IMG/VR virus record: IMGVR_UViG_3300025407_000020 | Location: 1 to 64,000 of that record | DNA: 64,000 nucleotides | Reading direction: 5' to 3' (one strand) | Source of the DNA: a virus | In this document: piece by piece, positions 9,905 through 13,479 of the stretch | How positions within the stretch are numbered: the first letter of the stretch is position 1 | How the letters are laid out: the number at the start of each line of letters is the position of its first letter | Program-made: the position numbers and the translations under genes | The notes under the pieces: model-generated | The model's database searches: none | What the model was told of the DNA's origin: nothing | Seen by the model: the letters and a program-made list of their open reading frames with translations, nothing else

Positions 9905-10450
9905 TTATTTATCTTTGCCGAAGACCTTTTGCAGAACTGCTACCACCTTATCCAGAGAATCTTCATCAGCTTGATACTTGCAAGCAACTCCATCGTGTTC
10001 ATTCCAAGCACGAGTGTTGACACCGTAATCGTCAATCAACACGTTGGGAGTGCCATCAGGTTGAACAGCATACTTGTACTTGTCATGCTCAAAGATTACG
10101 TTATCGGGCTTTACCTTGATATGCTTTTTGAGCCACTCAGTTTTGCCCTTAATGCTACCTGCCTTATCAAAGCTCAGTGGGCTACTAAGAATAGTATAAC
10201 CATCTGCATACTTCTTTACAAGTTCAAGCAGTTTGTTAGCAGTAGCAAAGGATGGAATATCACGAAACAAGTGATAAGCATCACTATCCTTGAAGAACGT
10301 TTCCCATTCTTCCTTGCTCATATCGTTGTAGTGATCAACATCATGCAAGTCGGCAGCGTGATTGTAGAGGTCAGCAAGTACTCCATCCATGTCAACATAG
10401 ACGATAGGTTTCTGTTCCTGTACATTTTCTAGGAGTTCCGTGATCTTCAT
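9905..10450 (-). CDS. HAD-family 5'(3')-nucleotidase-like phosphatase
   Basis: This 181-residue protein has HAD motif I as VYVDMDGVLADL, a motif II-like TILSSP, a Lys in the middle, and motif III as VLIDDYGVNTRAW, as in deoxyribonucleotidase-like proteins of phages. It would dephosphorylate nucleotides or a related phosphoester. The N-terminus MKITELLENVQEQ matches the capsid-targeting pattern of T4 internal proteins (cleavage after LLE). It has two signals upstream: a late box 4 nt from the ATG and a sigma-70-like promoter at 10486-10514. Confidence 0.75.
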   Translation of the reverse strand: MKITELLENVQEQKPIVYVDMDGVLADLYNHAADLHDVDHYNDMSKEEWETFFKDSDAYHLFRDIPSFATANKLLELVKKYADGYTILSSPLSFDKAGSIKGKTEWLKKHIKVKPDNVIFEHDKYKYAVQPDGTPNVLIDDYGVNTRAWNEHDGVACKYQADEDSLDKVVAVLQKVFGKDK

Positions 10451-10543: not shown

Positions 10544-10551
10544 GATAAATA
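10544..10551 (+). promoter_or_regulatory. Late promoter box GATAAATA, 5 nt from the plcP ATG
   Basis: On the plus strand, GATAAATAGCTAT precedes the ATG at 10557. It is the only promoter-like element seen for the plus-strand operon and suggests late, possibly leaderless expression. Confidence 0.5.
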
Positions 10552-10556
10552 GCTAT

Positions 10557-11342
10557 ATGACACACAAGACATACAGAACCATCTTCATCTCGGATGTCCA
10601 TTTGGGCACAAAGGATTGTAAAGCAGACTTGCTTAACAATTTCCTAAAGCACAACACCTGCGAAACTTTATACCTAGTCGGTGACATCATAGATGCTTGG
10701 AAGATTCAACAGAACAAGATGAAGTGGAAGCAATCACATACTAATGTGGTGCGAAGAATCTTGGGTCACAGTAAAAGAGATACTGATGTGATCTATGTAG
10801 CTGGCAATCATGACGAGTTTTTACGCCCAATGATGCCATATGCAGCTACGTTTGGTAGAATGAAAATCTGCAACACTGTTACTCATATTGGTGTTGATGG
10901 TAAACGATACATGGTGGTGCATGGTGACTTGTTTGATGGCATCACTCGCTTAGCTCCCTGGATCAGTTTCTTAGGAGATAAGGCATATGATTTCGTATTG
11001 AGTTTGAATAGTAGATTCAATTGGATAAGGCACCGTTTGGGCTTTGGTTATTGGTCACTGAGCAAATATCTCAAGCATCGTGTTAAAAAAGCTATGGACT
11101 TTATATTCAAGTTTGAAGGCAACATAACATCATATGCTAAGAGAAAGGGTTATGCAGGTGTAATCTGCGGACATATCCATCATGCTGAGATTAAGATGAT
11201 TGATGATATCATATACATGAATGACGGCGACTGGGTAGAAAGTTGTACTGCATTGGTAGAACACCATGACGGACGCTGGGAAATCATTACATGGCAGGAG
11301 ATGAAAAATGAAGACAAAGAACCTAGTAAAAAAGATGTATGA
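10557..11342 (+). CDS. plcP: PlcP-type phospholipase C (metallophosphoesterase)
   Basis: The ATG at 10557 is chosen because the family starts just before the first metal motif; the longer frame from 10440 runs into the HAD gene. The 261 residues carry all calcineurin-type metal motifs: ISDVHLG, GDIIDAW, GNHDEF, VHGDLFD and GHIHHAE, plus the family signature MNDGDWVESCTALVEHHDG. This subgroup (often labelled UDP-2,3-diacylglucosamine diphosphatase) includes the PlcP of Alphaproteobacteria, which removes phospholipid head groups to leave diacylglycerol during phosphate starvation. The adjacent glycosyltransferase is the usual partner, which favours PlcP over LpxH. It acts at the inner face of the cytoplasmic membrane. 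Confidence 0.85.
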   Translation: MTHKTYRTIFISDVHLGTKDCKADLLNNFLKHNTCETLYLVGDIIDAWKIQQNKMKWKQSHTNVVRRILGHSKRDTDVIYVAGNHDEFLRPMMPYAATFGRMKICNTVTHIGVDGKRYMVVHGDLFDGITRLAPWISFLGDKAYDFVLSLNSRFNWIRHRLGFGYWSLSKYLKHRVKKAMDFIFKFEGNITSYAKRKGYAGVICGHIHHAEIKMIDDIIYMNDGDWVESCTALVEHHDGRWEIITWQEMKNEDKEPSKKDV

Positions 11343-11439
11343 AGCTATAACGCTTAAGGACAAAGATGCTGAGAAGAAACTATGGTTTAAGGCATTGAAG
11401 AAGTCATTGAAGCATAAAAAGACTCATCATATCCAGTGA
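11308..11439 (+). CDS. Small basic protein between plcP and agt
   Basis: A 43-codon ORF (MKTKNLVKKMYEAITLKD... ending KHKKTHHIQ) starts inside the 3' end of plcP and stops with TGA overlapping the GTG of the next gene. It is very rich in Lys with a possible amphipathic helix. The tight overlaps suggest it is translated and couples the two enzymes. Binding to anionic lipid or simply a coupling peptide are both possible. Confidence 0.55.
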   Translation: MKTKNLVKKMYEAITLKDKDAEKKLWFKALKKSLKHKKTHHIQ

Positions 11440-12428
11440 AAACCATATTAGTAATCACTGACAACCTCAGAACACAAGTTAATGGTGTTGTCACAACTTT
11501 TAGAAATCTTGAACGAGTCGCCGTTAAGGATGATCATCGTATCGTATATATTGATCCTAATAGTTTTATACATATGTCTGCTATTGGATATCCAGAAGTA
11601 AAACTTTCCCTTCCATTTCGCATTGGTGCCAAGATTCAATCTATTAATCCTGACTACATACATATTGCTACTGAAGGTCCAATTGGAGTAGCTGCAAAGT
11701 TATGGCTAGACAAACATAAGTGGAAATACAACACTAGCTATCATACAAAGTTTCCAGAGTTTCTTAAACGATTGTATCGTATCCCTGAATCATGGACATA
11801 TGCATATTTGCGTTGGTTCCACAAACATAGCGGTAGAGTGCTTACTACTACGCAGTCAATGGTTAACGAACTTAAAGAGCATGGTTTCAATGGAGACATC
11901 ATATCTTGGACTCGTGGTGTAAACAGAGATATATTCAATCCCTACTATAGAAAAGAACAATCCGAGATAACTCTTGTATGTGTCAGTAGAATCAGTAAAG
12001 AGAAAAGCATTGAGGACTTTTGTGAACTAAATTATCCTAATGCGAAAAAGATCGTAGTTGGTGATGGCCCATATCGCAGTGAGCTTGAGAAGAAATATAC
12101 TAATGTGGAGTTTGTTGGGCTTAAGAAAGGTACCGAGCTTGCCAAATACTATGCATCTGCTGATGTATTTGTGTTTCCAAGCAAGACCGATACATTTGGT
12201 ATAGTCATCATTGAGGCAATGGCATGTGGAACACCGGTTGCAGCATATCCAGTTACTGGACCTATTGATGTAATAGAACAGAACATAACTGGATTCATGG
12301 ATGAAAATCTGTCAGTAGCAATAGATAATTGCCTAGACTTAGGACGCAATGCTGTATATCAAGAAAGTAAGAAATGGTCTTGGGAAAACTGCTGGGAAAT
12401 CTTCAAGACTAATTTAATTAATGCTTAG
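11436..12428 (+). CDS. agt: GT4 diacylglycerol glycosyltransferase (Agt-like)
   Basis: The GTG at 11436 overlaps the upstream stop (GTGA). The 330-residue GT-B enzyme shows VITDNLRTQVNGVVTTFRN at the start, IHIATEGPIGVAAKLW, YHTKFPEFLKR, then TRGVNRDIFNP, RISKEKSIEDF, VVGDGPY, and the nucleotide-sugar signature FPSKTDTFGIVIIEAMACG with the GT4 E-x7-E. These are the features of the Agt proteins encoded beside plcP in marine Alphaproteobacteria, which glycosylate diacylglycerol from UDP-sugar. Donor (glucose or glucuronate) cannot be read from sequence. It converges on and overlaps the next minus gene by 11 bp. Confidence 0.85.
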   Translation: MKTILVITDNLRTQVNGVVTTFRNLERVAVKDDHRIVYIDPNSFIHMSAIGYPEVKLSLPFRIGAKIQSINPDYIHIATEGPIGVAAKLWLDKHKWKYNTSYHTKFPEFLKRLYRIPESWTYAYLRWFHKHSGRVLTTTQSMVNELKEHGFNGDIISWTRGVNRDIFNPYYRKEQSEITLVCVSRISKEKSIEDFCELNYPNAKKIVVGDGPYRSELEKKYTNVEFVGLKKGTELAKYYASADVFVFPSKTDTFGIVIIEAMACGTPVAAYPVTGPIDVIEQNITGFMDENLSVAIDNCLDLGRNAVYQESKKWSWENCWEIFKTNLINA

Positions 12429-12675: not shown

Positions 12676-12881
12676 TACTTCTGCCACATAAGAAATGCTA
12701 CATAGTCTCGGTCGGATTCAAAAACGAACTCCCACCGTCCTGTGTCACTGTCTTGATCACCGACAAGATCAACAAAACGGTAATCACCTTCACAGTTTCT
12801 CTCACACCAATCAAGAACAGGCTGCAAATGCCCATATGGAATATCAATGTTAGCTTTATGTGCGGTCGGTATATTGATCAT
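12675..12881 (-). CDS. LRWS-family small protein
   Basis: This 68-residue protein contains LQPVLDWCERNCEGDYRF, matching the WC-E-x-NC segment of the paralogues at 20237 and 55759, and ends FESDRDYVAFLMWQK. It is a member of the family but has lost the exact LRWS end. It is coupled to the downstream paralogue by TAATG. Function unknown. Confidence 0.6.
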   Translation of the reverse strand: MINIPTAHKANIDIPYGHLQPVLDWCERNCEGDYRFVDLVGDQDSDTGRWEFVFESDRDYVAFLMWQK

Positions 12882-13444
12882 TGACTTTTCTTTTGAGTTT
12901 TTCCACGACTAAATCCTTCAGGAATGGCCTCACCGGATTTAAGCATCTTGTTATTTGTACCGTCTGTAACCCAAATCTGTCCAAGAGTGCGCTTGTTAAG
13001 TTCTATGGGCATCTGGGCTATTCTTGCTAAATGCCCAGATTCGGCATTGCGTTTTCCTTGAGCCTTGCCTCCCTTTATGCACGATTTAAGTCTCTCGGCC
13101 GGATCACCAAATGCACCTTTCCCGGCTGCCATAGTTGCGGCGCCGCCCTTTTTACCGGCTTCACTACAGTTAGCCATTTTCTGTATCTTTTGCATATGGC
13201 CGTTTTCTGCATTTACCTTCCCTTGAATCTTCCCTCCCGCAGAACAGTTGAGTAAAAAGGCTTCCTCTGTCTGTCCTGACAATAGATAGTAAGCCCAAAG
13301 GTCCTGTTTTTTACCGTGGTCCTCATAAAGTTTTAAATGGGCCTCGGCGTGTTCAGCAAGTGATAATTCAATGAGATTAGAAGGATCGTCAGTCCCTCCC
13401 ATATGACGAGGTATAATGTGATGTATGTGCGTTAGTTTTTTCAT
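12878..13444 (-). CDS. HNH homing endonuclease
   Basis: Start at 13444 (MKKLTHIHHIIPRHMGG), which follows AGAGG. The 188 residues have the HNH core HIHHIIPRHMGGTDDPSNLI and EHAEAHLKLYE, then NUMOD3-like repeats (SAGGKIQGKVNAENG, SEAGKKGG, KGGKAQGKRNAESG) that bind DNA, and a C-terminal IWVTDGTNNKMLKSGE segment typical of phage HNH proteins. It separates small early genes from the dCMP deaminase. Selfish element. Confidence 0.85.
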   Translation of the reverse strand: MKKLTHIHHIIPRHMGGTDDPSNLIELSLAEHAEAHLKLYEDHGKKQDLWAYYLLSGQTEEAFLLNCSAGGKIQGKVNAENGHMQKIQKMANCSEAGKKGGAATMAAGKGAFGDPAERLKSCIKGGKAQGKRNAESGHLARIAQMPIELNKRTLGQIWVTDGTNNKMLKSGEAIPEGFSRGKTQKKSQ

Positions 13445-13479
13445 AAAAGATGCCTCTGCGTGTAGCACTTTTATTTATC
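13443..13479 (-). promoter_or_regulatory. Late box inside an inverted repeat controlling the HNH start
   Basis: GATAAATA is at 13472-13479. ATAAAAGTGC (13465-13474), which begins in the box, pairs with GCA-T-CTTTTAT that reaches the start codon (13443-13453), enclosing the AGAGG ribosome-binding site. A read-through transcript could fold and hide the site, while a transcript starting after the late box lacks the 5' arm. This is the logic known for T4 I-TevI and soc. Confidence 0.5.

Follow-up and report, generated by a model that had tools for sequence, protein, structure and literature searches.

A plcP-agt operon on a phage genome and its predicted role in remodelling host membrane lipids

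The functions of PlcP and Agt in bacteria have been established experimentally (PMC4796936; PMC8528852; PMC9239053). The two genes form a plcP-agt operon in SAR11 HTCC7211, Erythrobacter NAP1, P. aeruginosa (PA3219-PA3218) and M. trichosporium OB3b. Under phosphate shortage the bacterial enzymes convert phospholipids of the membrane to glycolipids. Phages that infect starved hosts are known to commandeer the uptake of phosphate and the recycling of nucleotides. Our searches of the open-access literature turned up neither a description of a plcP-agt operon in a phage nor a paper combining plcP, auxiliary metabolic genes (AMGs) and viruses; as the searches covered open-access papers, priority is uncertain. 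The module could have escaped notice for two reasons: the gene goes under the name lpxH, and contigs with glycosyltransferases were dropped from at least one ocean-wide AMG catalogue. Specifically, lpxH is listed among viral AMGs in a Baikal virome (PMC9611531) and in a study of offshore oligotrophic water (PMC10653327), and these genes may be PlcP, while the exclusion of glycosyltransferase-bearing contigs from an ocean AMG catalogue (PMC11360552) would remove a plcP-agt operon.

Our analysis did reveal such a gene pair in a stretch of 64,000 nucleotides (the window) from a virus record in IMG/VR that is 113,555 bases long. We read it, with a probability of roughly 0.78, as the bacterial plcP-agt pathway of lipid remodelling carried by a phage, where it would serve mainly for phosphorus recovery. 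The locus comprises the following features, given with the evidence for each.

9905-10450, minus strand: 5'-deoxyribonucleotidase-like gene, the upstream neighbour of plcP (PF06941 and phrog_2643)
10544-10551, plus strand: T4-type late promoter GATAAATA, 13 nt 5' of the plcP ATG (sequence)
10557-11342, plus strand: plcP-type calcineurin-like phosphoesterase, ATG start, 261 aa (Pfam, metal site, tree, selection)
11308-11439, plus strand: 43-codon ORF that overlaps both plcP and agt and so joins them (conserved frame and length, dN/dS)
11436-12428, plus strand: agt-type GT4 glycosyltransferase, GTG start, 330 aa (Pfam, profile match, tree, structure model)

The first-pass annotation had described a complete PlcP-type gene followed by an Agt-type GT4 on the strand running against the rest, and ORF calls and Pfam agree with it: the pair lies on the plus strand and almost all remaining large ORFs lie on the minus strand. 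The coupling ORF it had proposed overlaps the end of plcP by 35 nt and the start of the GT4 gene by 4 nt (GTGA). Its frame and length are kept in three related loci (L002, L003 and L083), and a dN/dS of about 0.13-0.15 places it under constraint. For plcP and agt the synonymous sites are saturated in comparison with relatives, with pN of about 0.10 and 0.19, respectively; judging by these values both genes are under strong purifying selection, far beyond chance. An HNH/homing-endonuclease-like ORF near the operon (window 12878-13468) is locally similar, at the DNA level, to a homing endonuclease from Synechococcus phage S-SKS1.

Both genes derive from bacteria and every IMG/VR record is a prediction, which would fit a cellular contig wrongly called viral, a chimera of the assembly or passenger genes in decay. 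We give this explanation almost no weight. The record encodes a T4-type DNA polymerase, a clamp loader, a tail-fibre protein and PhoH, and the late-promoter motif NATAAATA stands no more than 60 nt upstream of 15 of its 143 gene starts (expectation 1.4). A terminase profile reached only 22 bits at best on the record, at the PhoH gene, and identified no terminase; the record is probably partial. An identical copy of the locus is present on a separate IMG/VR contig (L017/L082), which may not be an independent sample, and the order nucleotidase, plcP, agt and small ORFs recurs in other metagenomes (L004/L005) at protein identities of only 67-83%. The deoxyribonucleotidase-like gene beside plcP likewise recurs in L004 and L008, which belong to the lineage of the window. 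Thus the chimeric assembly that had been named as a danger to the annotation is ruled out by the separate copy and the recurrent flanks. Host contamination is rejected on the same grounds together with the T4-type genes and the viral PlcP clade described below; the distinct viral clade of the second protein and the presence of plcP in isolated phages also speak against it, and purifying selection and recurrence with the same flanks speak against decay. On this evidence the locus sits on a genuine phage genome, where it is conserved and under selection as an AMG would be. The close relative L008 has the same flanks and plcP without GT4 (L008:5001-5735), and comparing it with the window locus offers a natural way to study how agt was gained or lost. 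Elsewhere, at positions 67510-74574 of G000 (L310), we observed a block encoding CsgG, a FecR-domain protein, a protein with CHASE2 and guanylate-cyclase domains and a Gcw_chp outer-membrane protein. This CsgG block may be related to a curli operon that has been reported in HTVC008M and in phage Melnitz.

The window phosphoesterase matches Pfam Metallophos (PF00149) with 42 bits. Its metal motifs had been called intact, and all eight ligands (D13, H15, D43, N84, H85, H122, H206 and H208) are indeed invariant across 32 viral homologues, so that sequence and model together give the protein a calcineurin-like fold with a complete two-metal site. This fold is shared with LpxH, and the homologues in the isolate phages Mosig and S-SRM01 are annotated as UDP-2,3-diacylglucosamine hydrolase/diphosphatase. 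The structural model (pLDDT 74, moderate) also has LpxH as its nearest solved structures; we know of no solved PlcP structure, which is why LpxH comes out nearest among those solved. An LpxH-like lipid A enzyme, with the glycosyltransferase acting on lipopolysaccharide and the surface being altered, would account for these annotations and the fold, but is very unlikely in view of profile scores and phylogeny. The LpxH model TIGR01854 gave 34.7 bits against a cut-off of 190.35 and PRK05340 gave 48.6 bits against 134. Across 12 bacterial genomes, true LpxH proteins (five genomes), which come from PlcP-bearing bacteria, reached 266-351 bits with TIGR01854, whereas PlcPs scored 24-58, the lowest value being a partial match. 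PlcPs furthermore carry the motif GNHD and LpxH sequences GNRD. In a tree of 101 proteins with LpxH as outgroup (PA3219 and the SAR11 HTCC7211 protein absent, congeners of PA3219 included), a long branch with 100/100 support separates LpxH, and 33 viral PlcPs form one clade (99/97) within the bacterial PlcP radiation. Beside this clade, the Mosig protein and one other viral protein join the PlcP of Hyphomonas/Hellea; two isolate-phage proteins sit on long branches and their placement is unsure. Tree placement had been proposed as a check on this gene, and the phosphoesterase falls with bacterial PlcP. LpxH identity was accordingly rejected.

Neither is the glycosyltransferase what a lipopolysaccharide enzyme would lead us to expect, since the viral GT4 joins the plcP-linked Agt proteins, away from other GT4s. 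The window protein matches Pfam Glycos_transf_1 (83 bits) and Glyco_transf_4 (53 bits), and its structural model (pLDDT 92.7) has GT4 enzymes as nearest structures. The donor motif that was reported as intact is D252-X7-E260 (DTFGIVIIE), which matches the E/D-X7-E pattern in a form that bacterial plcP-linked GT4s usually show as well. When a profile of the viral GT4 was run against 14 bacterial genomes, the top match was the plcP-adjacent GT4 in all 14 (310-403 bits), leading the runner-up by at least 150 bits. The runner-up scored 161 bits in Azotobacter and 157 bits in P. citronellolis, where it is possibly an Agt2; in the other genomes it stayed below 66 bits. In the GT4 tree the viral proteins form one clade (98/89) beside the bacterial plcP-adjacent GT4s. 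Tree and profile thus agree with the Agt-type assignment of the first-pass annotation, and by both measures the window GT4 is, among the GT4s of a genome, specifically related to those linked to plcP.

The annotation had also suggested searching viral contigs for adjacent plcP and agt, and the pair was found in many. The plcP scan of IMG/VR gave at least 597 confirmed stretches, the best 80 of which, one copy at 100% excepted, have 75-87% identity to the window PlcP. At least 580 relatives of the GT4 were confirmed; among the best 80, plcP lies upstream in each of the 51 loci that have 3 kb of sequence on either side. The 49 dereplicated, best-scoring plcP loci, which are no random sample of viruses, carry GT4 in 25 cases, GT2 in 15 and both in none; as a counterpoint to the pairing, nine have neither and thus no recognised glycosyltransferase close by. 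The viral GT2 is unrelated to GT4 and matches the Pfam GT2 and GT21 models; its profile found no match in the bacterial plcP neighbourhoods fetched. Such a swap of unrelated glycosyltransferases behind the same plcP points to glycosylation of the PlcP product and recalls neighbourhood types described in marine bacteria (PMC4796936). Among named phage records, plcP homologues occur in 5 and GT4 matches in 18 with none common to both, so this collection holds no isolate with the pair. Some related loci differ in gene content. In four of them (L015, L038, L063 and L067) a RimK-like ATP-grasp ligase stands between the viral plcP and GT4, which suggests a further modification step in some phages. 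A bacterial plcP (L099:2157-5798) was seen by eye downstream of an apparent UDP-glucose 6-dehydrogenase and a glycosyltransferase of another type, perhaps a different route to glucuronosyl lipids, and a related plcP of Thiomicrospira (L107) follows apparent betaine-lipid genes btaA/btaB, also judged by eye, which speaks for a role in lipid remodelling.

Pho boxes tie a large part of the viral family to phosphate. A fixed 18-base consensus with at least 14 matches was passed by 33 of 120 viral plcP upstream regions, where 4.7 were expected. A second scan used half-sites TGT[CA]A, the half-site being relaxed after the first look with the same rules for all controls, and gave a period-11 repeat in 41 of 89 dereplicated viral plcP upstreams; periods 7-10 and 12-17 occurred in only 2-11 of the 89. 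The bacterial positive control yielded 40 of 103. Of 531 upstream regions taken from other viral genes, 30 carried the repeat; ten of these 30 genes read as phage pstS, so that the true background is lower still. Moreover, pstS lies close to plcP in 13 of 129 viral loci, mostly immediately upstream, and near plcP in the isolate phage Mosig. Bioinformatic Pho boxes in phage genomes have been called unreliable, and cyanophage genes are known to be regulated by PhoB of the host (PMC10976474). A Pho-box-like repeat was also seen, in four viral loci, upstream of a family of 210-240 aa proteins with the sequence MRLEDLAARLVAVEAKLATLTG (L047:4195-4839, L061:4880-5521, L251:1415-2092 and L234:4470-5183), which may likewise belong to a phosphate regulon of phages. 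The upstream region of the window plcP itself contained no Pho box, nor did any of the six dereplicated upstreams nearest to the window PlcP (window included), and pstS was looked for in the 113,555-base record and not found. The lineage therefore seems to time the operon with phage late promoters, and expression in the window's phage is, on sequence grounds, likely to be late and independent of host PhoB. As the Pho box is a frequent and not an obligatory trait, its absence here does not exclude membership in the PlcP family.

From the sequences we infer the enzyme activities and the purpose as follows. PlcP is predicted to cut phosphoalcohol head groups off host phospholipids, leaving diacylglycerol, to which Agt would add glucose or glucuronic acid, with a UDP-sugar of the host as donor. 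The resulting phosphorus-free glycolipids would keep the membrane intact, and the recovered phosphorus would feed phage DNA synthesis in phosphate-poor hosts, its main purpose in our reading. By a rough estimate, the phospholipids of a 0.5-µm cell, about 2 million, contain the phosphorus of roughly nine 113-kb genomes, a gain that could matter where the host is small. The release of phosphate for phage DNA, as put forward at first, stands in part: Pho boxes and pstS in relatives favour it, but the product is presumably a phosphoalcohol rather than free phosphate, and the window copy has no Pho box. Phosphorus recovery is the most likely purpose of the Pho-boxed members. Since the window copy has a late promoter instead, phosphate scavenging is better supported for other family members than for this one, and a late membrane effect on charge, lysis or superinfection is possible for the window's phage. 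Alternatively, the same enzymes would make a late glycolipid switch that changes membrane charge or surface and thereby blocks superinfection, protects from cationic peptides or aids lysis, with phosphorus recovery incidental. In keeping with this, the window copy has a late promoter in place of a Pho box, the response of P. aeruginosa and E. coli to polymyxin changes with glycolipids (PMC8528852), and phage adsorption is said to depend in part on lipid remodelling (PMC9804370). We hold such a switch to be unlikely, though not far-fetched, because Pho boxes and adjoining pstS in much of the viral family tie plcP to phosphate.

If phosphorus recovery is indeed the main purpose, lipid exchange would give phages access to membrane phosphorus, a further route beyond uptake and nucleotide recycling, and would affect lipid pools, the cycling of phosphorus and the sensitivity to phages. 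We somewhat favour the wider view that phage lipid remodelling is a common, overlooked module of plcP with GT4 or GT2, many copies being wired to PhoB and some placed by pstS, through which a phosphate regulon would mine the membrane; viruses may routinely rebuild host membranes. If so, glycolipids should appear in phosphate-starved cells upon infection and PhoB should bind to phage promoters, and we suggest that phage genes catalogued as lpxH be re-examined.

Compared with known systems, the locus resembles LpxH in its calcineurin-like fold, its metal site and the name given to isolate-phage homologues, and differs in clade, in GNHD instead of GNRD and in a model score far under the cut-off. 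Among isolates, a PlcP-like protein of Pelagibacter phage Mosig EXVC030M is 48% identical and encoded beside a phosphate ABC transporter gene, and that of Synechococcus phage S-SRM01 is 36% identical with an unsure place in the tree (long branch); neither has an adjacent agt. With the bacterial plcP-agt operon the viral loci share both protein families, the gene order, genes that often overlap or lie close together and, in much of the viral family, the Pho box. The window copy, however, lies on a phage genome, belongs to separate viral clades and has a phage late promoter, an extra 43-codon ORF and no Pho box. Like cyanophage pstS and other PhoB-controlled phage genes, the viral plcP genes are linked to phosphate stress and to the host PhoBR system. 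The known cyanophage genes act in uptake or nucleotide recycling, whereas plcP-agt would act on membrane lipids, and, unlike them, relatives of the window plcP carry a Pho box of the proteobacterial type with an 11-bp period.
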